Origin: a virus
Reading direction: 5' to 3' (one strand)
DNA length: 64,000 nt
Virus record (IMG/VR): IMGVR_UViG_3300035682_000032
Coordinates: 1-64,000 of that record
Made by a program: the position numbers and the translations under genes. Below, in pieces: positions 12,001 to 64,000 of the stretch (its first letter is position 1; each line of letters begins with the position of its first letter). Below the pieces are notes generated by a model. That model made no database searches. It saw nothing but the letters and a program-made list of their open reading frames with translations, and was not told the origin of the DNA.

Positions 12001-12668
12001 TCAACTACCTGACTGGTACGGCTGTCGCCAACCGTATCGGCTTGTCTGACCTGCTGATCAACAGCACCGGATACCGTGAGCAAGACAACGCAGTGCTGGC
12101 ATTCTTGCAACTCATGGGTGGCCCAGTCTACGGCGTAGCCGACCGGATACAGCAGGGCGTTAAGTTGATCAACGAGGGTGAGACCGAGCGCGGCTTGGAG
12201 CGTATGCTCCCCGCAGGTATCGCCAACGGGTTCAAGGGTATTCGCTTTGCAACTGAGGGTGCCAACACCTTGCGTGGTGACCCGATCACCGGTGAGATGC
12301 ACCCTGCCAATGCGTACGCTCAGATGTTTGGTTTTGCACCTGCCGAGTACACCCGCCAGTTGGAGATCAATGCGTCCCTCAAGAACATTGAGCGCCGTGC
12401 TACCAAGGAACGTACCAAGGTGTTGCGCGACTACTACATCGCCGCACGAAGTGGTGACGCAGACGGCATGAGTGATGCACTGGACGACATGTTCAAGTTC
12501 AACAAGTTGCACCCCACGGCGGCAATCACAGCCGAGACTATCCAGAACTCAATGGCGCAACACATGAAGACATCGCAAGAGATGTACCATGGCGTCACCC
12601 TCAATAAGAAGCTCCGCCCTGAGTTGTTACAGAACGCGGCTGAGTACGACAACGGGTTGCTGGACTGA
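6060..12668 (+). CDS. Giant internal virion / ejection protein (2202 aa) with HEAVH motif
   Basis: The largest complete gene in the window, preceded by AAGGAG. The N-terminus has a DGNLYEIEGPEGATRQQV segment common at the start of phage polyvalent virion proteins, followed by glycine/alanine-rich, potentially membrane-inserting stretches (about residues 80-260). A low-complexity Pro/Lys/Asp region occupies about residues 670-780. An HEAVH motif (residues 1143-1147) in LHEAVHAAT is followed by DEFVAEAF, as in zincin-type peptidases. The C-terminal third (KIMFMYKRYGVSMYYM onward) resembles PLxRFG-type proteins of T7-like and other podoviruses. Likely role: packaged in the head, ejected, and helping DNA cross the cell envelope. 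The peptidase reading rests on a short motif. A bidirectional-looking hairpin follows immediately. Confidence 0.7.
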   Translation: MPLYQITGPDGNLYEIEGPEGATRQQVIAAVQKRMSSQEDTNAEARLQQLRAEREEMLKPKPTVGGSIKEFGKGLVPGAINLLESAGTGISALLPDDTEKAAREKIKELAGIAKKPFEAGAGYEDSVMRKLGEGLGSTLPFFAAGPLGLAGRVAAGGLGVAAGAGEARESAEAKGATGEERRLATQLGAPTGLLDLLAPQIKPFKSLVGTAFARGGVEGATEAAQKVAQNLIAKGVYDPQQEILVGSGEEGAYGAGVGALASLIIDMTIGRKARRASLGLDKEAPKETTPDALRLTGEAPFTPVGLPDGSVAMTREDLAAYEESKFKDKYAPQDAAPRLREKDAVGTQGELYPSERDSALIQLSQMEGPQRQAPADFELEMQEAPRGVQQELDLQPRIERDTQTRDMIDDLEETQQIEELYAKDEREAAKIRAEKERIKFESDLAELTGAVERKQEKTSQDTRLQLLLPIVESDVKNIPKAFVLELKREGFTNTNLTDRERNLINRAYDIRLAEEPVVEAEPEVQASEEQKKELRSIESLIPEKKAQREPQQMGFPGMGKPKGAAPQAFSEEEIASQEKPFATVLTPEVLANAGLPKQSGFYKQLLNMDMADTAQQPVVANIFGRIRENPNLSTGTKDAVENLAMQAFGGLAKQGDMFVPAKPIKAAKEDKKNATATRPAAGKPAERGRDKNAGDVAGGTGTRTEDRKPSGAKDERTGAPADTKRVETPKPTGLGDRGKPADDTGVRKGVEPPALKKTEVKDGKVTSLVERRQNQIEDQEDAQDAAEFAEDLKAVRQRTRNKYERRIKSLWPVIEKAKKVLRDTAYPNSLEAGSVERSIQELEGVAKQYDALMEGENFNSPLRRFDEVMEGLSADTQRLQEAIDALNASPKPKPKTEAKGKPEAKAEKPKADASFGAYGQVMEAESKSDALDYLAYDMYVAMFEKHKLLSRVDKLNDITAQLRTGIPVDDIAFGREGTTSIVPLSGGKYAKAFYESLSAADKRALSNKMSDYFNKSEAEVRRGSTQFNVQQELSRATKEQMDNDQLELSRDAVVLALPLHPAIRKALKAGDLRGALTMLGSQNLGRASEVAKKLAGAMGKTKVELEPMLLNAEDVPVAGLYDPKTDTIKLDAEEGVNLHVLLHEAVHAATSHVIDNKSHPVTKQLTELYNNVKDSLDTAYGAQSLDEFVAEAFSNPEFQQQLAAINPKGEAITAWQRFMHAIRNFVRSIMGKETKGMGSALDASDSLINTILSPAPESREAGSLFSASLLGKSSAVFKTLDNRILSLPALDNKIVGGIYELFREGVPSAVQKLVRRSLPLNALTEVAKEDIPMAPKLDELEKRWSGSIDKRKRATEATMKRIQNWVKGNPEKEVILNDVIATSTLDQVDPSKPRADYKGKQSESGLDKQKVWDDLQPQWNKLGPEGQSVYKQMRDTYAKTYDDLLNLMFNRIDNSVTDKEDAKKLKTEIYQRLATKGKIEPYFPLTRNGDYRLSYDGKGRDGNLEHFVEHFETSVERERAIKELEKESGVKNIQRFKGGAKRTYKDAPPTSFVNSILRTLEANRPAGEAGKIHDQMTDEIMRTFLSTLPETSFAQAFRKRKNTPGFSFDAPAAFFTRSMGMAHQLANLEYSGKMYQLRDEIDKHVKEKNNTERARGLADELNSHIQTLVSPDIAPWSKALTSTAFAWTLGFNVSSAVVNMSQVPLVLMPYLGGKYGYSETMKALGSATKLFFGSGLKRNAEMSVPTADGKSKIEISAGFSLDNYDFDAKDTPPEIKRLKELSQIAEDYGLLSRSMTHDILDMDEKSTPLNRVNAWSGFIFHHGERMNRQISLIASYELELDRMAKDGEKIDSASRTEAAKRAIQTTELLNGGASAGSAPLLAKNSIGKIMFMYKRYGVSMYYMMFKTAREAMKSEDKKVRDAAMRQIVGIYASAGMMAGVQGLPMFGIMAAVYNMFKGDDEDDAETAARKYLGEGLFNGAVNYLTGTAVANRIGLSDLLINSTGYREQDNAVLAFLQLMGGPVYGVADRIQQGVKLINEGETERGLERMLPAGIANGFKGIRFATEGANTLRGDPITGEMHPANAYAQMFGFAPAEYTRQLEINASLKNIERRATKERTKVLRDYYIAARSGDADGMSDALDDMFKFNKLHPTAAITAETIQNSMAQHMKTSQEMYHGVTLNKKLRPELLQNAAEYDNGLLD

Positions 12669-28672: not shown

Positions 28673-29884
28673 TCAGTCCTCCACATGTACATACTTGCCA
28701 ACATCAGGTCGTGCGTTCGCATTACCTACGATGCACCACAACACGGGGCATGCCCACTGACCCCACGAGCCACCGAGATAGCCGTCAGTCAACACCACAA
28801 CCGCTTGCGGCTTGATACCACCTTGTGTCATGTACTCAGGCACACACTCTACGTTCGTACCACCACCGCCCTCGGGCTTGGTCGAGTCAACGATGTGTTC
28901 AACTTCCACACCTGTGTACTTCTCATCAGCGCACACCGCAGTGTCCCAATACAAGAGTCGTACGGTGTCGGGCTTGACCTGATCACAGATACCCTTGACC
29001 TCGCCCAAGAACTTAGCCAACTCGCGCCCACCGATGGAGCCCGATGTGTCGATGGCGATGACGAGTTCGCCCACCTGTTCGCTCACACCCGATGGCATGT
29101 AATAGCCCGATGACACGAACCTACGGTTGGGCCGCTTCCACGTTGAGTAGTCGTTGCCCTGACATGTTGTGGAGATGAACTCACGCAGTGCCTCGCGCCA
29201 GTCGATCTTGGTTTGCAACAAGTCATCGAACATGCGTTCCCCTCCCGAGCCGAGCTTGCCAGCCGCCAGTGCGCCTTGACGGATTGCTTCGTCGAGATCA
29301 CGCGCCAACTCTTTGGTTTGCTCAGCGGTCATCTCTTGCGCCCCCTCCCAGTCGTGTTCATCGAGACCAGTTCCCGACTCGCCATCGCCTGACTCGCCAT
29401 CGCCCGAGCCGCCACCTGTGCTGCCCCCGGAATCTTGTTGGTCATCCTTGAGTAACTTGTACACCTGTGCGCTGTCCATGCCGCGATACTTGGTATCGAG
29501 CAGACCGACCTTGGGCATGATGGCAAAGCCATCGCTGTTGTCATCAGTCAGCTTGATGTTGATCACGTAGTCGCATGCCGCATTCGCAAGCTGTGCGTTG
29601 TCCTCGTACAGATGACGCCACGTTGTGAGGTGACGATACAGTTTGTGGTAACACTCGTGCAACACGAGGAACCTAAGCTCTGCGTCAGTCAGTGTCTCGA
29701 TGAACGCACGTCCGTACATCTCATCGCGTCCGTTGGTACATGCGGTGCGCACCTTGTCGTCCACGGAGCGTGAGCCGATCATGAGTACACCCGCGAGGGC
29801 TACATACTTGGGCGAGCCCATGATGTCCACCACCGCTTTGCTGAGGCGTTGTTCCGCAGTCAATTGTTTTCCAATCATTAACAT
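28673..29884 (-). CDS. VWA-domain protein with N-terminal DUF2201-type metallopeptidase motif
   Basis: 403 aa. The N-terminal domain has LVLHECYHKLYRHL, a zinc-binding HExxH motif (His76, Glu77, His80). An acidic Gly/Ser/Asp/Glu linker follows (about residues 150-182). The C-terminal VWA-like domain has a MIDAS signature, AIDTSGSIGG (Asp279-Ser283), and TDGYLGG. This fits the DUF2201_N plus VWA-like architecture. Such proteins pair with MoxR-type AAA ATPases, which load or remodel targets. The ATPase gene is directly upstream with an 11-base gap, and the start follows a strong AAGGAG. Substrate unknown. Confidence 0.8.
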   Translation of the reverse strand: MLMIGKQLTAEQRLSKAVVDIMGSPKYVALAGVLMIGSRSVDDKVRTACTNGRDEMYGRAFIETLTDAELRFLVLHECYHKLYRHLTTWRHLYEDNAQLANAACDYVINIKLTDDNSDGFAIMPKVGLLDTKYRGMDSAQVYKLLKDDQQDSGGSTGGGSGDGESGDGESGTGLDEHDWEGAQEMTAEQTKELARDLDEAIRQGALAAGKLGSGGERMFDDLLQTKIDWREALREFISTTCQGNDYSTWKRPNRRFVSSGYYMPSGVSEQVGELVIAIDTSGSIGGRELAKFLGEVKGICDQVKPDTVRLLYWDTAVCADEKYTGVEVEHIVDSTKPEGGGGTNVECVPEYMTQGGIKPQAVVVLTDGYLGGSWGQWACPVLWCIVGNANARPDVGKYVHVED

Positions 29885-29895
29885 GTTGTCTCTCC

Positions 29896-30990
29896 TTACT
29901 TCTTGTCAGCCGCGAACATGTAGTTGTTCGCCATTGCCCACGCTGTGAACTTCTTGTTGGTCATGACCACAGACTGCTTGGCATACTTGGGGTTGCGCAC
30001 ACCGTTGGCAAACATGCCTTGGGCTTCTTTGTCGAGGCGCACCATGTAGTCCATCCACGCATCAATCCAGTCACGGTCGATGACAGACAACGAGCGATAC
30101 ACCACCATACATACAGCCGCCGCGCTGTCAGGCACCTTGGCATTCATTGGGTCTTTCTTGATTGACTCCAATGATGGCAACTGATCAGACAGTTTGACGA
30201 ACGCCATCAAGTCCATGGCACCGCGTTCGCCGATGGTGCCCATCAGTAAAGCTGTCATAGTTTGATCGTCTACACCATCGCGGCCCTTCAACCAATCCGA
30301 TGCGGCTTCGAGTGAACGAGGTGTCACGAACGCTGTGCGCTGTTGCTTGGGGTGATAGATGTACGGGTTTTGCTCAGGGTCTTTGACATCCTCGAACGAG
30401 TGGAACAACTGAGGGTTGTCCTTGCACCATCCAAGCAATGTGTGATCGACGCCGTTGTTGACACCCCACTCAATCCATTCCATGTTAGACGGCTTGCGTG
30501 ATGTGACGATGGTCATACGGTTACGTGCATGAGGCGGGAGCAGATCGCCCACACCCTCGGCACCGAGGTTGGTTGTGGCAAAGCGGAGGCTTGTCGGGTG
30601 CAGTTCGTACGAGCCGAGCTTGCCTTCGAGCAACAAGCGGAGCATCGCGTTCTTCACGGCAGGGTTTGCCTTGCCGTACTCGTCCACCATGAGGATGATC
30701 GGCTTGCTCAGGTGCAGACCCAACTCCTCGTTGGTCACGTAACGCACATACCCTTGATCGTCAATGGTTTGCAACTGAGGGATGGTGATGTCGCCCAAGT
30801 CCTTGGTCGTGCAGTCAAAGTAGCACATGGTGTGATTCGGCAGTGCCTTGCCCAATGTCTTGAGCAGGGATGACTTGCCAGTACCCATGTGACCTTGCAC
30901 GAGGATGGTGCGCTTGTTGCCACCGAGTCGGATGGCAGTCTCGATCTGATCGAGCCCGAGAGAATACATTGCAATTGCTTGATTAGCCAT
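29896..30990 (-). CDS. MoxR-family AAA+ ATPase
   Basis: 364 aa. Walker A is GHMGTGKS (residues 33-40) and Walker B is ILMVDE (99-104). Sensor 1 lies in LRFATTN, and PPHARNRM follows in the arginine-finger region. MoxR ATPases act as chaperones that activate or remodel partner complexes together with VWA proteins (RavA-ViaA, NorQ-NorD, CbbQ-CbbO are known pairs). The VWA gene follows at once and the DUF3150-like gene precedes, giving a three-gene module. The leader contains a copy of the 17-base dyad and a short CCTAAA tandem repeat. Confidence 0.85.
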   Translation of the reverse strand: MANQAIAMYSLGLDQIETAIRLGGNKRTILVQGHMGTGKSSLLKTLGKALPNHTMCYFDCTTKDLGDITIPQLQTIDDQGYVRYVTNEELGLHLSKPIILMVDEYGKANPAVKNAMLRLLLEGKLGSYELHPTSLRFATTNLGAEGVGDLLPPHARNRMTIVTSRKPSNMEWIEWGVNNGVDHTLLGWCKDNPQLFHSFEDVKDPEQNPYIYHPKQQRTAFVTPRSLEAASDWLKGRDGVDDQTMTALLMGTIGERGAMDLMAFVKLSDQLPSLESIKKDPMNAKVPDSAAAVCMVVYRSLSVIDRDWIDAWMDYMVRLDKEAQGMFANGVRNPKYAKQSVVMTNKKFTAWAMANNYMFAADKK

Positions 30991-31029
30991 GATAAATTTT
31001 CCTGTTGAGGTTTAGGTTTAGGTTAAGTT

Positions 31030-31046
31030 GTTATACGGCGTATAAC
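31030..31046 (-). promoter_or_regulatory. Dyad/hairpin GTTATACG-G-CGTATAAC, copy 1
   Basis: Perfect 8-bp arms around one base, in the leader of the MoxR gene. Read leftward it is followed by AACTTAACCTAAACC and, 40 bases on, the start codon. It could be an operator or an RNA hairpin. Confidence 0.7.
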
Positions 31047-31934
31047 TTAGAAGCCCAGCGAGGGCAGGTTGTCGATGGTCTTGCGAACCTCGTTCACCTT
31101 GCGGCGTGTCTCAGCACGCAGGTAGGGGTCTTCACGCAGGGCATCAGGTGTGATACCGCGCATCGCTTCGTCCAAGTCGCGCTGTGCCGCCATCATCACG
31201 GGGTCGCCTGTCACGTTGCATGCACCGAGTAGCTCGATGATGTCCGTCACGTTTGACACGAGTGAATCACGGAACACCTTGCGGGTCATGTCGTCAGCGT
31301 AGTCGAGGCGCTCTGACATCTTTGTCAGTGCATCGTGCGCTCTGCGCCACACATCACCCATCGCGGCTTGGAGTTGGGTCGCGTAGTAACCCTCGTACTG
31401 AGAACGCAGGGCACTCTCGGTCTCGTTGCCGATGTTGACACGCCAGTCACCCGCATCAGGCAGGGGCATGTAGTTCATCTTGAATCGAAACTTCGATGTC
31501 AGCGAGTCGGCTGTCGGGTACTCGTCAGCGTTGAACAGTGCACCGAGCTTGAGTTGGCTGTTCTGAATCTCCCATGAGTACGCATCCAAGAACGCTTGCA
31601 CGAGGCGTTGGTATTCGTTCTGTAACGCTGTCATTTCTTGGTGATACTTGAAGTATTGTGTCGTTGGTAGCAGACGCAGACCTGTGTCAGACCATGGCAT
31701 GGTGCATGCGTAGTGCACATTACGTGCATTGGCTGTGAACTTCTGCACCGCATCCAATTCGGCGCAGTCACCGAGGAGCTTCTTGTGGACGTTCGCCACA
31801 CCCTTGTCAGCGTTGTTCTGTGACGTGACATCTTGTGAGGCACGCTTGTCGAGCTTGCGCCCTGTCCATGTGCCGATGGATAGTTCAACGAGCATCGCGG
31901 CTGTTGAGATTGAGGGGACAGTTGTGTTTGTCAT
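31047..31934 (-). CDS. DUF3150-like protein of the MoxR/VWA module
   Basis: 295 aa, mainly helical. The N-terminal region (LVELSIGTWTGRKLDKRASQ) with a tryptophan-glycine-arginine core and the later helices recall DUF3150 proteins, which I know from phage and plasmid genomes beside MoxR ATPases and VWA/CobT-like proteins. The assignment rests on this pattern and on the neighbours; no catalytic residues are visible. It is the first gene of the trio, with its own near-consensus promoter and a dyad in the leader. Confidence 0.5.
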   Translation of the reverse strand: MTNTTVPSISTAAMLVELSIGTWTGRKLDKRASQDVTSQNNADKGVANVHKKLLGDCAELDAVQKFTANARNVHYACTMPWSDTGLRLLPTTQYFKYHQEMTALQNEYQRLVQAFLDAYSWEIQNSQLKLGALFNADEYPTADSLTSKFRFKMNYMPLPDAGDWRVNIGNETESALRSQYEGYYATQLQAAMGDVWRRAHDALTKMSERLDYADDMTRKVFRDSLVSNVTDIIELLGACNVTGDPVMMAAQRDLDEAMRGITPDALREDPYLRAETRRKVNEVRKTIDNLPSLGF

Positions 31935-49633: not shown

Positions 49634-52600
49634 ATGACCACACAATACACACCAACGCTGAAATTGGCGCTCCCCGTCACCGGCGAACTCTCTGGTACAT
49701 GGGGTGACGTTGTTAACGACAACATCACTTCGATGATTGAGCAAGCCATTGCCGGTCTTGTAACGATCAACACTTGGACTGGTAACGCCCACACGCTGAC
49801 CACAGCCAACGGTACGACTTCAGAGTCACGTTGTGCCATGCTCGTTGCAGCTACTGGTGGTGGCGCTCCAACTGCCGCTGCTGAAATCATTTGCCCTGCC
49901 GCAGCCAAGCTCTACGTGTTGCAAAACAACACGTCCTACGCTGTTACCCTGAAGACCTCTGCTGGTACAGGTGTGGCAGTCGCTGCTGGCAATACCGCAT
50001 TCTTGTTCTGTGACGGCACAAACGTCAATTCATGCGTGACAACCATCGTTGATGGCAACATCACTGGTAATCTGACTGTGGGTGGTAACGCCACAATCAA
50101 CGGCAACACCACACTGGGTAACGCGACAAGCGACACCATCACAGCCACTGCACGGTTTAACACCGACCTGTTGCCCTCGACTGACAATGCTCGTGATCTG
50201 GGCGCTGCTGCAAACGCATGGAAAGACCTGTACATCGACGGCACTGCAACGATGGCTCTGGTGGCCATCTCTGGTGGCACGATCAACGGTGTGTCGATTG
50301 GTGCAACAACTGCGGCCACGCTCATCAACGTAGACAACCTGCGTCTTGATGGCAACACCCTGTCTTCAACCGACACCAACGGCAACGTGGTGATCGCACC
50401 CAACGGTACAGGCGACGTTCAACTGGACGCTGACACAGTGCGTGTTGGTGATTCTGCTGCCGCAGCCACCCTGACATCTAATGGTGCAGGCGCTCTCACG
50501 GTGACCACCGGTGGCGCTGCTGACCTCACACTGTCTACCAACTCAGGCACAACCTCTGGTACTGTCGTGATTGCCAACGGCGTGAACGGCAACATTACTC
50601 TGACTCCTGACGGTACAGGCGATGTGATATTGTCTGCTGACCGCGTGCAGATCGGTGACTCAAACACTGACGCTACGTTGACCACCAACGGTACAGGTAG
50701 CTTGAACTTGACGACCAACAACGGTTCAAACTCAGGCACGATTCAGATTGCTCAAGGCGTCAATGGCAACATCACGCTGACTCCCAATGGCACAGGTTCT
50801 GTGTCCGTACCAAAACTTGTTTGGAGCAATGGCACTGCGACTCGCGTTCCTTACCTGACTACCGGCGGTCAGTTTATTGACGACGCTGACCTGACGTTTG
50901 ACGGTACGACTTTGAGTGTGGGTGGTTTATCAAACCCCGGCCTGAGCACGTTGGTCAAGACATTGACACTTGGCAACACCAGCTTCAGCGGCACTGCTGT
51001 GTTTGCGCCCGCAACCCCCGCTAAGTTGTATATCGGTACTGGCACGGTGACGGATACAACCTCTGCTGCAAGTGCAACAAACGCAACAGGGGCAGTCAGT
51101 TCTTTGGCTATTACGCCAATTGCTGCGACTAACGCTTCGGTTACTTACACCAACGCATCGACCTTGTACATTGCAGGCGCTCCAAGCGCTGGCACAAACG
51201 TCACGATCACCAACCCATACTCACTATATGTGGCTGCTGGTGCGGCGTACTTTGGAGGTGCTGTTACTTACGGCGCTGGCCTGACCCTTGGCGGCAATTT
51301 GCTGTTTAGTCCAGACGGCACATACGACATTGGCACAACAGGTGGTAATCGTCCTCGCAACATATACCTTCAGGGTTTGACTACTGGCCGTGTAGCTTTT
51401 GTATCAACAAGCGGCTTGTTGGTTGACTCAGCTAACCTTTTGTACGCAGGGGCTGACTTGACCGTTTATGGCCTAAATGTTGGTCGTGGTGGTGGCGCTG
51501 TGTCTACCAATACTGCTTTTGGTGTTAGTGCTTTATCAAGTAACCTTACTGGTACGGACACGACTGCTGTTGGTTATAGAGCATATCGTTATGGCACAGG
51601 CGTAAACAATGCGGCATTTGGCAGCAATGCGTTAGGCGCAGGGATTGTTACAGGCTCGGAAAATACTGCAATAGGACGAGCCTCTCTTCTTTTACATACA
51701 ACAGGAAACAACAACACTGCCGTTGGTTCTTTAACGCTGGCCGCCAACACCACAGGCGGCAACAATATTGCAGTTGGCGTAGAAGCCCTTTACCTCAACA
51801 CCACAGCATCAAGCAACGTGGCAGTAGGTTATCGTTCATTGTATGTAAATACAACTGGAGCGCAAAACGTAGCGGTTGGTCAGCAAGCCCTACGAGACAA
51901 TACCACTGCATCTGGCAATGTGGCAGTAGGTTATCAAGCGGCTATTAGCAACACGACTGGCGACATCGTTGCTTTTGGAAATAACGCCGCAAGATCATCA
52001 ACTACTGCCGCATACAACAGCGCTTTTGGCAATCAGGCGCTTTATAACAACACAGCGGGCGGGAATACTGCTCTTGGTTCAGTTGTTTTATACGCCAATA
52101 CAACTGGTGTTGAAAACGTAGGTGTGGGTGGAAGTCTTCTTACCAGCCCTGCTTTGCGTAATAACACCACAGGGTCATACAACGTAGCCGTAGGCGCTGG
52201 TTCGTTAGCCTCCAACACCACCGGAAGTTACAGCGTTGCAGTTGGTTATCAGGCGCTTCTTTCTAATACTACGGGACGAAATGTTGCCGTTGGCACGCAA
52301 GCACTCAATACAAACACAACTGGAACAGCAAATACGGGAGTGGGTGATTCATCGCTTGCATACAATACAACAGGCTCAAACAATACTGCTTTAGGGTATT
52401 TGGCTCTTGCTTTAAACACCACAGCATCAGGCAACACCGCAGTTGGTTATCAGGCGGCTTACTCAAACACCACTGGAACTAACAATAATGCATTTGGCAA
52501 CCAAGCACTAAAATCAAACACAACGGGTGAAGGTAATACAGCACTTGCTGGGTCTGCGTTATTTGCAAATACAACTGGAAACTTCAACATTGCAATTGGA

Positions 52601-53629
52601 CAGTCTTCTTTAGGCGCTAACACAACGGGCGCGGGCAATCTGTCTATTGGCTATGCGGCAATGAACGCCAGCACTACAGGTAGCCGAAATGTTGCAGTTG
52701 GTTCATTTGACGGTAGCACACTTCCTGCGCTGTACTACAACACAACCGGTGCAAGTAACATTGCAATTGGTGTTGGCGCTCTTAGAAACAATACTACGGC
52801 AAATTTGAATGTTGCAGTTGGCGACCTTGCCCTTGGCGGTAACACCACGGGTACTACTAACGTAGCTGTTGGCGGGTCGGCTCTTACAACCAGTTCCACT
52901 GCAAGTAACAACGTAGCTGTTGGGTATCAAGCAGGTCTTCTTACTACAACTGGTTACTCAAACGTATTTGTAGGTCGAACCACCGGATACAACACTACGA
53001 CGGGGTATGACAACACGTTTATTGGTCAAGGTGCTGGGTACTCTGTAACGACAGGATATTTGAACACGTTTGTCGGCTCAAATAGTGCCTTTTATTCCAG
53101 TGGTCAAAACATAACCACAGGCGCTAAAAACTCAATCCTTGGCAACTTCAACGGTAACCAAGGGGGCCTCGACATTCGCACTGCAAACAGTTACATGGTT
53201 ATGTCCGATGGCGATGGCTATATTGGTCAGTATTGGAGAAACGTAGGCCCCGGCAACGCAATTGACTCGCGTCCCGGTCTTGACAACCATGCCATTTCGC
53301 GCGTTGGCGAATCAGGCTCTATCAACACTGGCTCAAGCGCAGTGATCAACGTCAATGGTTACGGCGGCGATGGTTCTGGTGGTTTTATTTTGATTACAAC
53401 TGCCGCCGCAGATGGCTCTGCTGGCTACGATACAACCAATATGTGTGCGCAAACGCATGGCAATACATACAACACCTACGGCTCGCTTAGTGTTTATTCT
53501 TCAGTCAATAGCATCACCATTACAAACCCAATTGCTGGTGCAACTACCATCAGCAATAGTTCTGGTAAGACCATCAAATATCAAGCACGTTTCTTGAACT
53601 TGGGTTCTAAAGCCATCACACTCGCATAA
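49634..53629 (+). CDS. Tail fibre with YadA-head-like NTTGxxNVAVG repeats
   Basis: 1331 aa. The N-terminal part (LPVTGELSGTWGDVVNDNIT) is a known type of phage fibre anchor. Repeats of NGNITLTPDGTGDV type follow, then about thirty units of roughly 20-25 residues around ALxxNTTGxxNVAVG (about 51500-53150). These resemble the trimeric YadA-head repeat, expected to form a left-handed parallel beta-roll trimer. The C-terminal 170 residues are a distinct Gly/Asn-rich tip, likely receptor-binding. The next gene resembles a fibre assembly chaperone, supporting a role in host recognition. Confidence 0.8.
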   Translation: MTTQYTPTLKLALPVTGELSGTWGDVVNDNITSMIEQAIAGLVTINTWTGNAHTLTTANGTTSESRCAMLVAATGGGAPTAAAEIICPAAAKLYVLQNNTSYAVTLKTSAGTGVAVAAGNTAFLFCDGTNVNSCVTTIVDGNITGNLTVGGNATINGNTTLGNATSDTITATARFNTDLLPSTDNARDLGAAANAWKDLYIDGTATMALVAISGGTINGVSIGATTAATLINVDNLRLDGNTLSSTDTNGNVVIAPNGTGDVQLDADTVRVGDSAAAATLTSNGAGALTVTTGGAADLTLSTNSGTTSGTVVIANGVNGNITLTPDGTGDVILSADRVQIGDSNTDATLTTNGTGSLNLTTNNGSNSGTIQIAQGVNGNITLTPNGTGSVSVPKLVWSNGTATRVPYLTTGGQFIDDADLTFDGTTLSVGGLSNPGLSTLVKTLTLGNTSFSGTAVFAPATPAKLYIGTGTVTDTTSAASATNATGAVSSLAITPIAATNASVTYTNASTLYIAGAPSAGTNVTITNPYSLYVAAGAAYFGGAVTYGAGLTLGGNLLFSPDGTYDIGTTGGNRPRNIYLQGLTTGRVAFVSTSGLLVDSANLLYAGADLTVYGLNVGRGGGAVSTNTAFGVSALSSNLTGTDTTAVGYRAYRYGTGVNNAAFGSNALGAGIVTGSENTAIGRASLLLHTTGNNNTAVGSLTLAANTTGGNNIAVGVEALYLNTTASSNVAVGYRSLYVNTTGAQNVAVGQQALRDNTTASGNVAVGYQAAISNTTGDIVAFGNNAARSSTTAAYNSAFGNQALYNNTAGGNTALGSVVLYANTTGVENVGVGGSLLTSPALRNNTTGSYNVAVGAGSLASNTTGSYSVAVGYQALLSNTTGRNVAVGTQALNTNTTGTANTGVGDSSLAYNTTGSNNTALGYLALALNTTASGNTAVGYQAAYSNTTGTNNNAFGNQALKSNTTGEGNTALAGSALFANTTGNFNIAIGQSSLGANTTGAGNLSIGYAAMNASTTGSRNVAVGSFDGSTLPALYYNTTGASNIAIGVGALRNNTTANLNVAVGDLALGGNTTGTTNVAVGGSALTTSSTASNNVAVGYQAGLLTTTGYSNVFVGRTTGYNTTTGYDNTFIGQGAGYSVTTGYLNTFVGSNSAFYSSGQNITTGAKNSILGNFNGNQGGLDIRTANSYMVMSDGDGYIGQYWRNVGPGNAIDSRPGLDNHAISRVGESGSINTGSSAVINVNGYGGDGSGGFILITTAAADGSAGYDTTNMCAQTHGNTYNTYGSLSVYSSVNSITITNPIAGATTISNSSGKTIKYQARFLNLGSKAITLA

Positions 53630-56173: not shown

Positions 56174-58279
56174 GTGCCACTAAAGAAGATACTGCTCAAG
56201 CCCGGTGTGAACCGTGAAAACACGCGATACACCAACGAAGGGGGCTGGTACGAGAGCGAGAAGATTCGCTTTCGTCAAGGCACGCCTGAAAAGATCGGCG
56301 GCTGGACACGTATCTCCTCGGCAACCTTCTTAGGGGTGTGCCGTTCATTGTGGAACTGGGTGACCCTTGGCGGCATCAATCTGATTGGCGTTGGTACCAA
56401 TCTCAAGTTCTATCTTGCAGCAGGCGGTATCTACAACGACATCACCCCCTTCCGCGATCAGGTCACGCTGACCAACCCGTTTGAAACATTTGTTGGCTCG
56501 CCAGTTGTTGAGGTGACTGATGCCAATGGTGGCTATATTGACGGCGATTTTGTGACGTTTTACAACGCAACAGCCGTGGGTGGGCTGACCATCTTTGGCC
56601 AATACGAAATTACGGTCACTGGGGCCACCACATACACCATCACGGCAAGCGCAAACGCCACGTCAAGTGTGGCGGCAGGTGGCGGCACGGTCTATGCGCT
56701 GTATCAAATCAATGTTGGCCCTGCTTATGTGGTGCCGTTGGTTGGTTGGGGTGCTGGCCCTTGGGGCGCTGGCCCTTGGGGTATTGGTGAAGCATCTACG
56801 GACGCTATTCGTTTGTGGAGTCAGCAGAACTACGGCGAAGACTTGATCTTTGGCCCCCGCGAAGGCCCAATCTACTACTGGGATGCTACGTCTGGCTACA
56901 CACCAATCACGTTCTCTGCAACCGTGGCCAACCCCACAGTGATCACTGCCGCTGCTGAATACGCTAACGGTACACCACTTCGCTTTGCACCTGACTCTGG
57001 GTCTACTATGCCGGTGGGCATTCTTCCCGGCGAGATGTATTACGTACGCAATGCCGCAGGTTCTTCGTTCAATATCTCACTGACTCCCTCGGGGGCGCTC
57101 ATCCAAGTTACTGTTGCCGCTGTGGGTGTATGCCGTATCCTGTCAAACGGATATAAGTTGGCTGACTTTGGAAGTGCCACGGACGTGCCAATCGAGCAGA
57201 ACTATTTGTTGGTGTCTGACATCAGCCGGTTTGTGTTTGCGTTTGGTTGCAACGATTACGGCTCCTCTGTGGTTGACCCGATGTTGATTCGCTGGTCTGA
57301 CCAAGAAGACCCGTTCAACTGGACACCCGCATCGACCAACCAAGCGGGTTTCTTGCGCTTGTCTCGTGGCTCTGAAATCGTCACGGCTACCCAGTCACGG
57401 CAAGAAGTTTTGGTGTGGACAGATGCCGCACTGTATTCACTCCAGTACGTGGGTGCACCGATTGTCTGGGGTGCGCAGCTTGTGGGTGAGAACATCTCCA
57501 TCGTGGGTCAAAACGCCGTGTCGTACGCCACGGGCGTGGCTTATTGGATGGGCAAAGACAAGTTTTATAAATACGATGGTCGCACGCAGACATTGAACTG
57601 CGACTTGCGCCGCTACGTCTTTGAAGACATCAACACCTCGCAGTACGCGCAGGTGTGCTCAGGCACCAACGAAGGCTTTAATGAAATCTGGTGGTTCTAT
57701 TGCTCCGCAAACTCTATCGACATTGACAAGTATGTGGTCTACAACTACTTGGAAAACGTGTGGTACTACGGCAATATGGCACGCACCGCATGGCTGGACT
57801 CTGGCCTGCGTGACTACCCACTGGCTGCAACGTATTACAACAACATCGTGAATCATGAAGACGGGTTGGACGACAACGCTACAGCCACTACATTGCCGAT
57901 TGTGGCTTCTATTATCTCGGCGCAGTTTGACTTGGATGATGGCCACAACTTCATGTTTGTATGGCGCGTCTTGCCTGACGTTACGTTTGAAGGCTCTACG
58001 GCGGCTTCGCCCAGCGCTACGATGTACCTGTTGCCATTGAAGAACTCTGGCTCTGGGTACTCGGTTAATTCAGCAACGGATGCTGACCACTCTGTGGCCA
58101 ACCAGAGTTTTGCATCCATCACACGGATTGCCACGCTGCCCATTGAAGAATTTACGGGGCAGATTTTTACTCGGGTGCGTGGTCGCCAGATGTCCATCAA
58201 GTTTGAGTCCACCGAGTTGGGCGTGAACTGGCAGTTGGGTGCACCTCGTATTGACATGCGCTCGGATGGCCGTCGATGA
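56174..58279 (+). CDS. Tail stabilisation protein, P22 gp10-like
   Basis: 701 aa, GTG start. The N-terminus (LLKPGVNRENTRYTNEGGWY, then FRQGTPEKIGGW) matches the start of the gp10/packaged DNA stabilisation family of P22-like phages. The body is beta-rich, with LRLSRGSEIVTATQSRQEVL and WTDAALYSLQYVG (propeller-like repeats). A WGAGPWGAGPWG repeat lies near residue 195. It would form the tail hub below the connector. It overlaps the next gene by 4 bases (ATGA). Confidence 0.8.
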   Translation: MPLKKILLKPGVNRENTRYTNEGGWYESEKIRFRQGTPEKIGGWTRISSATFLGVCRSLWNWVTLGGINLIGVGTNLKFYLAAGGIYNDITPFRDQVTLTNPFETFVGSPVVEVTDANGGYIDGDFVTFYNATAVGGLTIFGQYEITVTGATTYTITASANATSSVAAGGGTVYALYQINVGPAYVVPLVGWGAGPWGAGPWGIGEASTDAIRLWSQQNYGEDLIFGPREGPIYYWDATSGYTPITFSATVANPTVITAAAEYANGTPLRFAPDSGSTMPVGILPGEMYYVRNAAGSSFNISLTPSGALIQVTVAAVGVCRILSNGYKLADFGSATDVPIEQNYLLVSDISRFVFAFGCNDYGSSVVDPMLIRWSDQEDPFNWTPASTNQAGFLRLSRGSEIVTATQSRQEVLVWTDAALYSLQYVGAPIVWGAQLVGENISIVGQNAVSYATGVAYWMGKDKFYKYDGRTQTLNCDLRRYVFEDINTSQYAQVCSGTNEGFNEIWWFYCSANSIDIDKYVVYNYLENVWYYGNMARTAWLDSGLRDYPLAATYYNNIVNHEDGLDDNATATTLPIVASIISAQFDLDDGHNFMFVWRVLPDVTFEGSTAASPSATMYLLPLKNSGSGYSVNSATDADHSVANQSFASITRIATLPIEEFTGQIFTRVRGRQMSIKFESTELGVNWQLGAPRIDMRSDGRR

Positions 58280-58905
58280 TTGTCACCTCTGAGTTTGAAC
58301 TTCAACGCATCTCGCCGCCTGCACTGCCGCAAGCGCCGGAGGATTACCAGCGCCAGTATCAAGATCAGTTGAACAGCGTCTTGCGGTTGTACTTCACCCG
58401 CTTGCAAAGTATCGTGGGGCAACTGGAAACACTATCAGTTCCGTACGGAGCTTTTTCCAGCGACCAAGATCAAACTGCTGTGGTGAACACTGCTACGTTG
58501 ATGACGCTGAACACCACGGATTTTGCAAATGGCGTATCAATCAGTTCTTCCAAAATCACGGTGGCCACGGCAGGGGTATACAACTTGCAATTTAGTGCCC
58601 AGTTTCAAAATACGGATACTGCTTTCCAAGATGTGTACATCTGGCTTCGTCAAAACGGTGTAGACATTCCCGGATCAACAGGCTTTGTTTCTATTCCAAA
58701 CAGACACGCTGGTACGGATGGGCACGCAATCGTTGGATGGAACTATTTTCTAAATATGGCGGCAAATGACTACGTTGAGATTTATTGGTCTGTGCCTAAC
58801 GTTGCTGTAACCATCCAGCATCTTGCCGCTTCTGGCACGCCAACTAAACCATCGACCCAATCGGTTGTTGCTACGATGTCTTTTGTTTCTACGATTCCGC
58901 CGTAA
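58276..58905 (+). CDS. Tail protein with C1q/TNF-like jelly roll
   Basis: 209 aa. A helical N-terminus (APEDYQRQYQDQLNSVLRLY, then FTRLQSIVGQLE) likely trimerises. The C-terminal domain (VATAGVYNLQFSAQFQNTDT, WLRQNGVDIPGSTGFVS, GWNYFLNMAANDYVEIYWSV) is a typical C1q-like phage jelly roll. Possible needle tip or short spike; translationally coupled to the gp10-like gene. The following gap (58906-58989) holds a TACTAT -10-like element at 58958 but no well-spaced -35. Confidence 0.65.
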   Translation: MIVTSEFELQRISPPALPQAPEDYQRQYQDQLNSVLRLYFTRLQSIVGQLETLSVPYGAFSSDQDQTAVVNTATLMTLNTTDFANGVSISSSKITVATAGVYNLQFSAQFQNTDTAFQDVYIWLRQNGVDIPGSTGFVSIPNRHAGTDGHAIVGWNYFLNMAANDYVEIYWSVPNVAVTIQHLAASGTPTKPSTQSVVATMSFVSTIPP

Positions 58906-58989: not shown

Positions 58990-59271
58990 ATGAACGAACT
59001 TGAACTCTTTAACCGGTTAGCGCGTCACGTCCGACCCGCTTTTACCGCCTACGTACCCATCGAAACGATGGACATCCCCTTCCCTGAAACGGGTCTGGAC
59101 AGCATGGATGGGCTGATGATGCTCATCTACTTGGAAGACATCTACGGTCTGGACGACGAGATAGCCAAGCATTTCACATTTACCACCCCCGCTGAACTGA
59201 TGGCGCAGGTGCACCAACACAAAACCCAAGAACCCGAATCGGTCGATGCCGCGATGGAGTTGGCCAAATGA
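58990..59271 (+). CDS. Acyl carrier protein
   Basis: 93 aa, slightly longer than the typical 75-80. The phosphopantetheine site is clear: ETGLDSMDGLMMLIYLEDIY with Ser38 as the attachment residue, followed by acidic helix III (GLDDEIAKHFTFTTPAELMA). Host AcpS would add the prosthetic group. It carries acyl chains for the ketoacyl synthase, whose ATG overlaps its stop by 4 bases. The expected partner genes (malonyl transferase, reductases) are absent, so the pair must draw on host enzymes. Its lies between tail genes and an ejection-type gene, outside the early block, so it is probably expressed late. Confidence 0.85.
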   Translation: MNELELFNRLARHVRPAFTAYVPIETMDIPFPETGLDSMDGLMMLIYLEDIYGLDDEIAKHFTFTTPAELMAQVHQHKTQEPESVDAAMELAK

Positions 59272-60386
59272 TTGCGCTAACCCACACCCGAACCATATCC
59301 ACCGAGGCCACAGAACTGCTTGAGGACATTTCTTTCCCTCAGCGGGTACACTGGCTACCCGACACCTACGCTCGCGTCTCCACGGGCCTGTTTTACCCCC
59401 CGCATCGGCTTGCCGAGAAGGTGCTTGACCCTGAGTTAATCAAACTCCTGCGGGATACCCCATCCAAGAAGACGGCGTTCATCTTGGCGGCAGGCAACGC
59501 TCACTTTGCTGGCATCCCCTCATCCCCTCGGGATTCCCAACTGTCATATAGGTACAAACCCTTACCTTTGACATTGACGCAGGTCTACGCCAGCCGAATT
59601 GCCCAAGCGTGCGGGGCGTCTGATCACATCGTGACCGACTCTACGGCCTGCGCATCCAGCCTCAAGGCGCTCATGGACGTGCAGACTTTGCTGAACTTCT
59701 ACGGGTTTACCCGAGTAGTTGTTCTGTCCGTGGAGGACGCCGTATCAAATCTGGTACTGGAGTTCTTTGGTGAGACCAAGGCATGTCTGACTGCCAAGCG
59801 TGAGGCTGATGAAGGCATCGTCCCGTCTGCTTTTGACTCCAAGAACGGTAGTTTTCACGTTGGCCAAGGCGCTGTCTTTGCCGTCTTTGAGTCTGATGAA
59901 GGGGTGGCTTCGTCGGGGTTTAAACCTCTGGCCAAACTCATGGGGGCGTACACCGCCAGTGAGCCATGCACCAACGCCCTTGGGCAACTTGATTCTGGCC
60001 TTGGGTTTGTCAAAGCGGCGCAAGGTGCCATTGAAGTTGCGGGTGTTTCAAGCAGTGCAGTACGCATTGTCAAAACTCACGGGACTGGGACACTATCCAA
60101 TAACGTGTCAGAACGCAATGCTTTATCGCAAATTCTCCCGGATGGCTTCGTTGCCACTTCCTATAAACCTGTCATTGGGCATACAATGGGAGCCAGTGGG
60201 CTGCTGGAAACTGCGCTCTTGGTTGACTCTTTGCGGGAAGGAACCATGCCAGCGATTAAAAACCGAACCGAAGAAGACCGCGTATTCTTATCGGAGCCCT
60301 TACCGACCCCTGAAGGATTGGTGCTTAGCCTTGCGGCGGGTATGGGGAATGTTTATTCAGCCGCAGTGCTGTCCATAGGAGCCTGA
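59268..60386 (+). CDS. Beta-ketoacyl-ACP synthase (KAS I/II-like)
   Basis: 372 aa, shorter than the about 410 of FabF/FabB. The condensing triad is intact: Cys128 in DSTACASSLKAL, His271 in VKTHGTGT and His305 in KPVIGHTMGASGLLE, with Lys300. The N-terminal first 60 residues are unlike typical KAS. The enzyme would join malonyl-ACP to an acyl chain, releasing CO2. It is coupled to the ACP gene, so the phage supplies both carrier and condensing enzyme. Possible uses are altered host lipid or lipid A synthesis, or a dedicated acylation of a phage product; none is shown by sequence. Confidence 0.85.
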   Translation: MIALTHTRTISTEATELLEDISFPQRVHWLPDTYARVSTGLFYPPHRLAEKVLDPELIKLLRDTPSKKTAFILAAGNAHFAGIPSSPRDSQLSYRYKPLPLTLTQVYASRIAQACGASDHIVTDSTACASSLKALMDVQTLLNFYGFTRVVVLSVEDAVSNLVLEFFGETKACLTAKREADEGIVPSAFDSKNGSFHVGQGAVFAVFESDEGVASSGFKPLAKLMGAYTASEPCTNALGQLDSGLGFVKAAQGAIEVAGVSSSAVRIVKTHGTGTLSNNVSERNALSQILPDGFVATSYKPVIGHTMGASGLLETALLVDSLREGTMPAIKNRTEEDRVFLSEPLPTPEGLVLSLAAGMGNVYSAAVLSIGA

Positions 60387-60388
60387 CC

Positions 60389-60844
60389 ATGCAGCTTGTA
60401 GATAGTAACAAAGAAGAATTAGACACCTCCACCATCATTGCACGTGCTGTGGGGGAAGCCAAAGACGCTGGCCAGTTACCCAAAAACGTGACCCTGCAAG
60501 CGGCCATCCTCTCCGTCATCTCCGAAGGCTCTATGCCCAACACCAAAGTTGAGCAAATTGGCAACACTGTGTTCATGTCGCATTACAGCGAAGACGGTAA
60601 AGAAGTTGCCATGCGTGCGTTTAACGCGGATACTGCGCGGAACTATTTGGAAAGCTCCATCAAGTACGTCAAAGCATTGCCGGAACAGGGAGTTGAACGC
60701 ATGACCAGCGACTTCTCAGACAAAAAGATTTTGCAGTTGTTCAACACAATCGCTCGCCGCCCCGAACTTCAAGAGTGGGGCATGCAAGTGTATAAATTGA
60801 ACACAGGTGCAATGCGTGCATACGTCGTATTAAAGGGTGCGTAA
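60389..60844 (+). CDS. Conserved phage virion-region protein
   Basis: 151 aa after AGGAG. Recognisable blocks are IGNTVFMSHYSEDGKEVAMR, AFNADTARNYLESSIKYVKA, then FSDKKILQLFNTIARRPELQ and GMQVYKLNTGAMRAYVVLKG. I associate this pattern with uncharacterised proteins located before ejection genes in podovirus-like phages. Its alpha/beta order is consistent with a small folded enzyme-like domain, but no active site is evident. It shares a base with the giant gene that follows. Confidence 0.65.
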   Translation: MQLVDSNKEELDTSTIIARAVGEAKDAGQLPKNVTLQAAILSVISEGSMPNTKVEQIGNTVFMSHYSEDGKEVAMRAFNADTARNYLESSIKYVKALPEQGVERMTSDFSDKKILQLFNTIARRPELQEWGMQVYKLNTGAMRAYVVLKGA

Positions 60845-63800
60845 TGGGTGCAGTTGCTGATTTTGTTGGGGACGTAATAGGCGCAGTTGGTGATGCCATA
60901 TCGTCAGTTGGTAAAGCCGTCTTTAAGTTGGCTGATTTTGTCGTTGACAAGATCATCGACCCAGTTCTTTCAACAGTCAGCAATGTTATCCAAGCCGCGC
61001 TTGATAACCCAATAAAAACCATTGCGCAGGTTGCTGCGATTGCCACGGGTAACGCATGGGCACTCCCACTCATTGAAGGTGCAGATGTTGCCGCAAAGGG
61101 TGGCGATTTGGGGGATGTTCTTGAAGCCACTGCCAAAGCGTACGTGGCCCAAGAGATTGGTTCCTATGTTGGCGGAAAAGCCACTACCGCAGTAGCCAAA
61201 GCTACTGACAGCGCGATTGCAGGGCAGATTTTTGGTAGTGGCGCAGCCGCTGCGTCTGTTGCAGTTGTAACCAATCAAGACCCCCTCAAAGCGTTTATCT
61301 CTGGCGGTGTGGGTGCAGCTACCGGCGCAGTGCTGGGTAAAGTTGATGAGATGACAGGGGGTAAGTTTAAAACACTGCCTCCTACCGCACAGGCGGCTAT
61401 TCAATCAGCCATCACTGCGCAGATTACAAACAACCCCAACCCGTCTGCTGCCATCATGGGCAGCATTATCTCTGCCTCCGGCATTGTGACGGACGCAATC
61501 AAGTCGTTTGATCCTGACGGTACAAAACTTGACGCCACTCAGCGCACCATCTTGACCGATGTGCTCATGGGTACAGCCACTGCCGCGTTGACTGGTGGTA
61601 AAGCGTCCAACGTCATCCAAGCCGCCATGATGAAAGCAGGCTCTAAAGCTCTGGGCGACATGGCCACGGGCGCGTTTAAAACAGCTACCAGCGAAACCGC
61701 AAAGGCTTATGGAGCCGCAGATGCAGCCGCAGGTAAAGTAGATGCAAACATCGCAGCGCAAAAAGCCGCAGCATGGGAGTACAACCACAATGCCACGCAA
61801 CTGCAAGAGCGGATTGCAGAACAAAACAGACTTAGCGACGCATACAACGCCGCAGTCAAAGCGTTTGACGCTGACCCAACCGAAGAAAACGGTAAAGCCG
61901 CAAACGCTGCAATCACCAAGTACAACGAGTACGTCACAGCGTTGAATAAAGACTACAACGAGTCGTACAAACCACGTCTTGATAAATACGGCGCAGAGTT
62001 AGACACCCTGAAGCAACAACATGCGGTGTTGACTGGTGACTACGAAAAAGCCATGCAAGCGTTTGGCACCAAGACAGATACATTGTCCGACGCGCTTGAC
62101 CCCATCTACCGTACAAGTAACCGTGCGTTTGTCGAAGCGATGGACGAAAAATTCAACGCTGACCAATACCGCAAACTTAACGGGCTTGGCGCGGATGTTG
62201 ATGTCTACGATCACTACTTGTCCAAGGGCCAGTTTGAAGGTGCACCAACAAACAACAAAGCCGCTGAGTCAGTAATTGCAACAGAGCGTACACGTCTAAT
62301 TACTCAGGCGCTGGAAAGCAAAGGCGTGACTCTGGCCACGGCTGACCCTGCCATGGTGTCCAAGATGCTGGACAACATCGACAAGAACTACGGCAACAAT
62401 GTTTCAGCACTCAAAGCTGCGTCTATTCAAGATGTGATCAACGGCAACATCACGTCGGTCAATCAGTTGGTAAGTGATCAACGAAACGGTGTTCTAAGAA
62501 TTGAAGTTGCCGGTAGTTCTTACGGTGAATGGCAAAAGCCTTCATCCGACAGATTTACATTACCTGCGGGTATGAAACTGGCTTCGTATGCAGCGTTTGA
62601 TAGTGGTCGAGCCAGTCTGGTATACGACAACAAAGGAGCCCCCGTATGGATCGAAGCCGACCCCAGCACTGCTGTGGCAACGTGGAATCCAGCGACCGGC
62701 AACTATGAACTCCCGGCTGTCACAATAATAGGCAAGAAGCCTACTGAGCAAGAAAAAATTATTGCCATGGCCGAATTGGGCGGCTCGGCTGCTGTCAACG
62801 GTGTCGTGAGTGATGCCATGATCAACGCCGCCAAAACGGTCGTTGGCTGGGCACAGCAAACAGGTAGTTCCACACTGATTAACACCACAGCCAACGTGCT
62901 GAAAGCTGGTGGTGGTTTCCTTGAATCTATCAACGGTATATCCGTGCTGATGGGTGCTGCACCGAAAACTACGGCGTTGGGCAAGTTTTCAAACGCTCTG
63001 AATGATCTTGGCAAAGCAAGTAATACTGCGGAGTACCAAGCTGCCGTCAAAAACATGAACGCTATGATTGGCGATGCCAAAGGCGTTGGCGGCACGCTCA
63101 AAGCAATCTACGGTGCATTCAAGTCTGCCCCACTGCAATTTGTTGCAGAGTACGTTGGCGTTGAAGGTATCCAAGAAATTGCACCGCTTCTTATTGGTGG
63201 TGTTGTTGCCTCGGGTGCCAAAGGTGCTGCGGCGGCGTTGAAGTATGGCCAAGCTGTTGCCGCAAAGATGGGCAGTACCGCAGGTATGACCGCAGGTATC
63301 ATGACTGATATTGTTGAGTCGGCTGGCGGCGCTGCAACGGGTGCGTACGACGAAGCGTACAAAACGGCCATCAAAGTAGGCAAGTCTCCAGCGGATGCCG
63401 ATAAGATTGCCATGGAGATTGCACAACGCCAAGCGTTTGTTGCTGCGGCTACTACTGCCGTGTCGATGGGTCTTGGTGGTGCAGCCCTTGAGAAAGCTCT
63501 CTTAGGTAGGTCTGGTACGGGACTCGGCGATGCGTTGCAAACTCTTGGTGACTTTGCCAAGACCGGCACAAAGATAGCTATCAAAGAAGGTACTTCCGAA
63601 GCTGGCGAGGAAGGTATCACGCAAGCTGCACTTGAAGGGCAACTGTACAAACTCGACAAAACTCGTGACGTTGCCAAAGAGATCACACAGGCCGCTGCGT
63701 TTGGTTTCATTGCAGGTGGCCCTATTGCTGGAGGTGCGTATGCCGCAAGCCGTACAGGGGATGTCATCTCCAACGCTGTCCAAGGCAACCCACAGATCGC

Positions 63801-64000
63801 CAACATTCTGGAGACTAACAAGGGTAACCCCGCCGCCGCTGCTACTGCACTGGCCAACTTTGGTGTCACGGATAACACCATCAAGTCTAACTTGATGAAC
63901 ACAATTGACAACGCCAATTACACCAGCAGCGACGAAGCTGCTACGGCGCTGGCCAAGCGTGATGACTACACATACTCTGATGCAGATGTCAAAGCACTGA
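60844..64000 (+). CDS. Giant virion (ejection) protein, N-terminal part, cut by window edge
   Basis: 1052 residues are visible with no stop. The N-terminus is a hydrophobic/amphipathic segment (GDVIGAVGDAISSVGKAVFK). Gly/Ala-rich stretches, some long enough to insert in membranes (about residues 115-160 and 780-830), alternate with charged coiled coil (about 300-420). A block EGTSEAGEEGITQAALEGQL near residue 920, followed by GFIAGGPIAGGAYAA, is typical of phage internal virion proteins. The last visible residues (YTYSDADVKAL) match the repeat at the left edge of the window. Probable role: a pore or conduit for DNA entry. Confidence 0.75.
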   Translation, partial: MGAVADFVGDVIGAVGDAISSVGKAVFKLADFVVDKIIDPVLSTVSNVIQAALDNPIKTIAQVAAIATGNAWALPLIEGADVAAKGGDLGDVLEATAKAYVAQEIGSYVGGKATTAVAKATDSAIAGQIFGSGAAAASVAVVTNQDPLKAFISGGVGAATGAVLGKVDEMTGGKFKTLPPTAQAAIQSAITAQITNNPNPSAAIMGSIISASGIVTDAIKSFDPDGTKLDATQRTILTDVLMGTATAALTGGKASNVIQAAMMKAGSKALGDMATGAFKTATSETAKAYGAADAAAGKVDANIAAQKAAAWEYNHNATQLQERIAEQNRLSDAYNAAVKAFDADPTEENGKAANAAITKYNEYVTALNKDYNESYKPRLDKYGAELDTLKQQHAVLTGDYEKAMQAFGTKTDTLSDALDPIYRTSNRAFVEAMDEKFNADQYRKLNGLGADVDVYDHYLSKGQFEGAPTNNKAAESVIATERTRLITQALESKGVTLATADPAMVSKMLDNIDKNYGNNVSALKAASIQDVINGNITSVNQLVSDQRNGVLRIEVAGSSYGEWQKPSSDRFTLPAGMKLASYAAFDSGRASLVYDNKGAPVWIEADPSTAVATWNPATGNYELPAVTIIGKKPTEQEKIIAMAELGGSAAVNGVVSDAMINAAKTVVGWAQQTGSSTLINTTANVLKAGGGFLESINGISVLMGAAPKTTALGKFSNALNDLGKASNTAEYQAAVKNMNAMIGDAKGVGGTLKAIYGAFKSAPLQFVAEYVGVEGIQEIAPLLIGGVVASGAKGAAAALKYGQAVAAKMGSTAGMTAGIMTDIVESAGGAATGAYDEAYKTAIKVGKSPADADKIAMEIAQRQAFVAAATTAVSMGLGGAALEKALLGRSGTGLGDALQTLGDFAKTGTKIAIKEGTSEAGEEGITQAALEGQLYKLDKTRDVAKEITQAAAFGFIAGGPIAGGAYAASRTGDVISNAVQGNPQIANILETNKGNPAAAATALANFGVTDNTIKSNLMNTIDNANYTSSDEAATALAKRDDYTYSDADVKAL

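Follow-up and report, generated by a model that had tools for sequence, protein, structure and literature searches.

Gene content of the locus

The window analysed here, a 64,000-nucleotide stretch of a virus record of 64,648 bases, carries close to its end a gene for an acyl carrier protein (ACP) and, overlapping it by ATGA, a gene for a beta-ketoacyl-ACP synthase (KS), followed by a small protein predicted to adopt a GNAT fold and by the start of a very large protein (Table 1). The reading frames of the ACP and the KS, their overlap, the position of Ser38 within GLDSMD and the catalytic residues Cys128, His271, Lys300 and His305 all lie where the initial annotation had placed them. The same annotation had ended at the pair, which left it one gene short, as the next reading frame has a predicted GNAT acyltransferase fold. 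All of the evidence presented below is computational, and the structures and folds are predictions.

Table 1. Features of the locus in the window (positions in nucleotides).
Feature	Position	Strand	Remarks
Virion protein upstream of the ACP-KS pair	56174..58279	+	phrog_3287 match, 3.2e-60
Protein between the gp10-like protein and the ACP	58276..58905	+	209 aa; weak BclA_C match
Phage ACP gene	58990..59271	+	93 aa; Ser38 codon 59101-59103; conserved C-terminal HKTxEPxSxE tail
Phage beta-ketoacyl-ACP synthase (KAS I/II type) gene	59268..60386	+	372 aa
KS catalytic codons	Cys128 59649-59651; His271 60078-60080; Lys300 60165-60167; His305 60180-60182	+
GNAT-fold protein (predicted)	60389..60844	+	151 aa; without CoA P-loop motif; T7 gene 13-equivalent position
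Start of very large protein	60844..63999	+	open at window end; place of internal/ejection proteins

Upstream of the pair, the virion protein gene is syntenic to a gene of MW202545 annotated as 'phage stabilization protein' (P22 gp10-like). The protein encoded between this gene and the ACP gene keeps its N-terminal anchor across relatives while its C-terminal domain is swapped, in the manner of a modular receptor or decoration protein. Downstream, the giant protein had no Pfam match, and its frame, when read across the record ends, meets a stop just past the join; we have left its end open.

Elsewhere in the window, positions 49634-53629 encode a 1331-aa tail-type protein with phrog tail spike and virion matches and with many NTAxGxxALxxNTTGxxN repeats, which we take to resemble the head repeats of trimeric adhesins. 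Positions 6060-12668 encode a 2202-aa protein that adjoins ejection-type genes and whose C-terminal part matches DarB-like antirestriction families, and on the minus strand (28673-31934) genes for an AAA ATPase, a DUF2201 metallopeptidase/VWA-like protein and a DUF3150 protein stand in a row.

A divergent ACP-KS pair of the condensing type

The window KS matched both PF02801 (2.5e-15, 56.9 bits) and PF00109 (2.6e-06, 27.7 bits) above the cut-off of 20.8 bits that applies to each, and a sequence search against the PDB returned FabF and KasA matches down to 5e-19. Its AlphaFold2 model (pTM 0.90) had structural matches to KasA, the actinorhodin KS and FabF with E-values of about 1e-22. Against the NCBIfam fabF profile (TIGR03150) the protein reached 94 bits (7.5e-27), far under the equivalog cut-off of 493.75, and it is consequently not classed as FabF. 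Across the 132 KS loci, the four catalytic residues do not vary, and neither do Glu282, Met359 and Asn361; the Cys-His-His arrangement with its Lys rules out a thiolase or a CHN-type (FabH) reading. The enzyme is thus of the condensing type with intact catalytic residues, as first proposed, and not a member of a non-condensing thiolase subfamily.

Taken alone, the 93-aa ACP scored 15.3 bits against the Pfam PP-binding profile (PF00550), below the threshold of 20.8; a profile of the phage ACP family matched solved ACPs (E 4e-5) over a region spanning the DS motif, and DS[LM]D was kept in every ACP that was not cut off (139/139). The two genes are confirmed as encoding an ACP and a KAS I/II-type KS.

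Both partners deviate from their cellular counterparts. The phage KSs share 18-25% identity with the aligned cellular KSs and are about 40 aa shorter, the FabF stretch with the RKEQRK helix is missing from them in the alignment, and an invariant GMGN takes the place of the GFGG gate. In FabF, the RKEQRK helix has a role in ACP docking. Helix II of the ACP carries a hydrophobic residue at the position of Glu41 of E. coli AcpP (39 of 39 sequences), which is consistent with dedicated partners. Taken together, the missing RKEQRK stretch, the GMGN gate and the hydrophobic helix II suggest that the remodelled KS and its ACP may share a private interface.

Distribution, pairing and origin

In IMG/VR, 222 related stretches were found by a single-protein scan and at least 539 by an alignment scan; the loci examined are the best 80 of each scan, and the frequencies reported here are not population estimates. 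Some loci represent the same contig fetched twice, and the contigs are metagenomic, many of them fragments. A homologous ACP gene was located directly upstream of the KS, nearly always overlapping it, in 132/132 KS loci, and among close relatives of the window dN/dS was 0.06-0.16 for the ACP and 0.05-0.10 for the KS. From this pairing, the invariant residues and the low dN/dS we conclude that both genes are conserved and under selection; chance reading frames and decay are ruled out on the same grounds. The pair is hence neither absent from related phages nor decaying, the combination that the initial annotation had named as counting against it.

The carrier phages form a widespread uncultured group, with the module present in hundreds of environmental viral contigs. 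No KS relative appeared in a first scan of one genome per species (84,980 species), which used two phage-type patterns only and had limited sensitivity. One annotated phage record with the pair is MW202545.1 (Siphoviridae sp. isolate ctpbd312, Manatee Spring), which has the same gene order at identities of 55.6% (ACP), 63.5% (KS) and 34% (GNAT), and in which the KS is annotated as a 3-oxoacyl-ACP synthase and the ACP and GNAT proteins merely as hypothetical. Additionally, KS matches at 24-30% were seen in Listeria, Enterococcus and Pseudomonas Y4 (OQ572406.1) phage records and in gut contigs, all unannotated and resembling ordinary bacterial KSs; those in the three sets of phage records are possibly host contamination, and we have left them out as evidence.

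Searches of 11 phage records, whose completeness was not rated, gave no match to AcpS, a malonyltransferase or a short-chain (SDR) reductase, which would leave holo-ACP formation, malonyl loading and reduction to the host, in line with the dependence on host enzymes that had been anticipated for the pair.

The KS tree, which comprises 114 sequences, unites its 36 phage members in a single clade (support 1.0) whose stem measures about 2 changes per site; the clade has no near cellular neighbour, and the tree leaves its exact point of attachment open. The clustering with FabF/FabB that the initial annotation had named, together with a lipid change, as support for its lipid model was consequently not found, the phage KSs being a separate, long-branched clade. 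Recent acquisition from a host was likewise rejected: the clade is separate, no near donor was found, the best cellular match reached 33% identity and covered the protein only in part, and the two-pattern genome scan, with its limited sensitivity, gave no relative. Among the top cellular and plasmid KS matches, several are themselves preceded immediately by an ACP gene, which makes it plausible that ACP and KS were captured as one unit.

The GNAT-fold neighbour

The protein encoded after the KS had no family match above cut-off. Its AlphaFold2 model, built with 40 relatives, reached a pLDDT of 94.2, and the predicted order of elements (aa-bbb-a-b-a-bb) is that of a GNAT acyltransferase. The PDB matches of the model are GNATs, including the acyl-homoserine-lactone synthase TofI, with query TM of about 0.4-0.6 and probabilities mostly of 1.00, and 'Internal virion protein A' is found among its viral structure matches, as is a DUF2824 protein. 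The gap between KS and GNAT genes is at most 60 bp in all 120 loci that have both, and the GNAT gene shows dN/dS of 0.01-0.12 among close relatives of the window. The CoA-binding motif [QR]xxGx[GA] was found in none of the 40 aligned members, which is consistent with a non-CoA donor or with a protein that is not an enzyme.

Gene 13 of T7 occupies the same place, after a tail gene and before the ejection genes 14-16. A comparison by hhalign gave no sequence-profile link between the GNAT protein and T7 gp13 (PF11090); membership in PF11090 was dropped on this result, and the relation is kept as an analogy of fold and position. The Pfam label for T7 gp13 is 'probable scaffold protein', and the phage GNAT, too, may serve in assembly and not as an enzyme. 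Cobaviruses have been noted to carry a GNAT at the corresponding genome position (PMC6775973).

Natural variants of the locus

The composition of the locus varies among relatives. One genome (G003, 77% TerL identity) has the same operon with the GNAT gene and with neither ACP nor KS, and about 60 relatives in the GNAT scan have the GNAT protein, with the same invariant residues, and no ACP or KS, from which it follows that the GNAT protein does not need the phage pair. Seven contigs (L309, L313-L318) have a locus without KS in which the ACP gene immediately precedes the GNAT gene, and searches of the entire records of L313 and L316 gave no KS either. These KS-less ACPs keep DSLD and have dN/dS of 0.06-0.18 in the pairs where it was computable; being under purifying selection, they imply a use of the ACP other than serving a phage KS. 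Close relatives of the ACP-only contigs (L310-L312) are also without the ACP.

A further arrangement is found in L040, L320 (5720-7409) and L323 (5706-7430), where the pair lies beside a small sigma-like reading frame in an early-type operon and not in the virion operon. In L320 and L323 it sits behind a helicase-like reading frame, and in the record of L320 the GNAT gene is about 18 kb away, in the virion operon. Five shorter contigs hold KSs related to that of L040. The late-operon placement described initially is thus true for this window and is not universal, at least three contigs having the pair in an early/replication operon. The reading of the pair as an obligate partner of the GNAT protein is weakened by this subclade and by the roughly 60 pair-less relatives.

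On the GNAT tree, presence of the pair needs three changes, as against 21 for shuffled labels. The pair is accordingly old, inherited and rarely gained or lost, the tree leaving the direction of change open, and adjacency handed down from a small number of ancestral events says little about coupling. Presence of the pair had no consistent relation to the length of the giant protein across loci.

Proposed mechanism and alternative explanations

The two genes very probably form an active, private ACP-KS module, given that they are strictly paired, under selection and invariant in their active sites. The steps that we infer, from holo-ACP formation through condensation and chain length to the GNAT hand-off and the acceptor, would begin with host AcpS attaching phosphopantetheine to the phage ACP and host FabD loading malonyl. 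The phage KS would then extend the acyl chain on the phage ACP, with Cys128 forming the acyl-enzyme, His271 and His305 acting in decarboxylative condensation and Lys300 in support, and host FabG, FabZ and FabI would reduce the chain. Subsequently, the GNAT-fold neighbour would, in the fashion of RTX-toxin C-proteins (for example HlyC), use the acyl-ACP to acylate an ejection protein or a protein of the virion, perhaps the giant one encoded directly after the GNAT gene, which is the candidate acceptor if a virion protein is acylated. Survival of the ACP without the KS beside the GNAT gene points to another user of acyl-ACP, for which the GNAT protein is the obvious candidate. We tentatively favour this whole chain, from the module via acyl-ACP and the GNAT protein to an acylated ejection or virion protein, at a probability of about 0.4; retention of the GNAT gene without the pair and the early-operon subclade speak against it. 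Its more specific form, a phage analogue of RTX activation in which the private ACP and KS build the acyl group and a gp13-like GNAT attaches it to an ejection protein, is somewhat less probable.

Phage acpP and fabF genes have been described as lipid auxiliary metabolic genes (PMC8224337, PMC11705849). The main rival is that the product of an active ACP-KS module enters host lipids, be it phospholipid, lipid A or another lipid of the envelope, so that the membrane is changed in infection, the GNAT being an unrelated assembly protein. The enzymatic appearance of KS and ACP agrees with this, and it is a serious rival because the GNAT is conserved without the pair and because the pair of one subclade lies in an early/replication operon, where a metabolic gene would be expected. 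We consider it possible but not the favoured account, as no other lipid gene (AcpS, malonyltransferase or SDR reductase) was found in the 11 records, the pair is usually inside the virion operon, and the ACP is kept under selection without a KS directly before the GNAT gene.

Another possibility is that the pair has no dedicated product and acts on the acyl pool of the host: the KS would drain malonyl-ACP by decarboxylation or elongation, or the ACP would bind AcpP partners, and host lipid synthesis or signalling would be slowed. A KS with Cys-His-His is able to decarboxylate malonyl-ACP. Binding of E. coli ACP to non-lipid partners such as MukBEF, for which PMC11705849 gives a reference, fits such an effect; we nevertheless regard it as unlikely, since it leaves unexplained both the invariance of Lys300 and the two His residues and the strict pairing with a divergent ACP that has a helix II surface much less acidic than usual. 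That KS and ACP are virion components, their folds reused as structural or internal virion proteins, would suit their location between tail-type and ejection-type proteins in most relatives, but is very improbable in view of the invariant catalytic residues and phosphopantetheine serine, the early-operon location in one subclade and the about 60 relatives that do without both.

If acylation via the GNAT protein is correct, an enzymatic role would be suggested for GNAT-fold proteins beside podovirus ejection genes. Two matters become testable with these three small genes: what function phage ACPs have, and whether acyltransferase activity resides in the GNAT-fold proteins that adjoin ejection genes.

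Comparison with known systems

The phage KS resembles FabB, FabF and KasA (KAS I/II; PF00109/PF02801) in fold, in the Cys-His-His triad with Lys and in the invariant Glu, and differs in its low identity, shorter length, GMGN gate and own deep clade; as in acpP-fabF, the ACP gene is directly upstream. With acyl carrier proteins (PF00550), the phage ACP shares the DS[LM]D motif and the family-profile match to solved ACPs, whereas its sub-threshold score when taken alone, its hydrophobic helix II and its conserved HKTxEPxSxE tail set it apart.

The GNAT protein is similar to T7 gp13 (PF11090) and DUF2824 proteins in size, predicted GNAT fold and position before ejection-type genes, but T7 gp13 carries a P-loop-like motif, RLSGKA, that the phage GNAT family lacks. 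Among toxin-activating acyltransferases, the RtxC enzymes depend on acyl-ACP, and ApxIC, whose structure is known, is GNAT-like and without CoA elements (PMC8339906). A GNAT-like fold without CoA-binding elements is thus common to the RtxC/HlyC enzymes and the predicted phage protein, and an acyl-ACP donor is the proposed analogy. The phage protein differs in that the RtxC/HlyC family profile gave no match to it, so that the likeness is one of 'works like' only, with a putative donor and acceptor.

In earlier work, phage ACP and fabF genes were assigned to the auxiliary metabolic genes, their roles being speculative (PMC8224337, PMC11705849, PMC5463345), and fabF has been reported in viromes (PMC10653327, PMC12783922). 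Phage-borne ACPs are known from Rhodobacteraceae prophages, in three of them together with fabF/fabG (PMC8224337), and from Alteromonas phage R22Y (PMC11705849), in whose record we found one sub-threshold ACP match. We found no description of this ACP-KS pair with its GNAT in the open-access literature. The phage-borne ACP is what the present locus shares with these acpP/fabF genes; in contrast to them, the pair described here, for which no reductase was found, extends across a lineage as a module whose KSs form a clade of their own, and in most genomes it adjoins a GNAT-fold protein at the position held by gp13 in T7.
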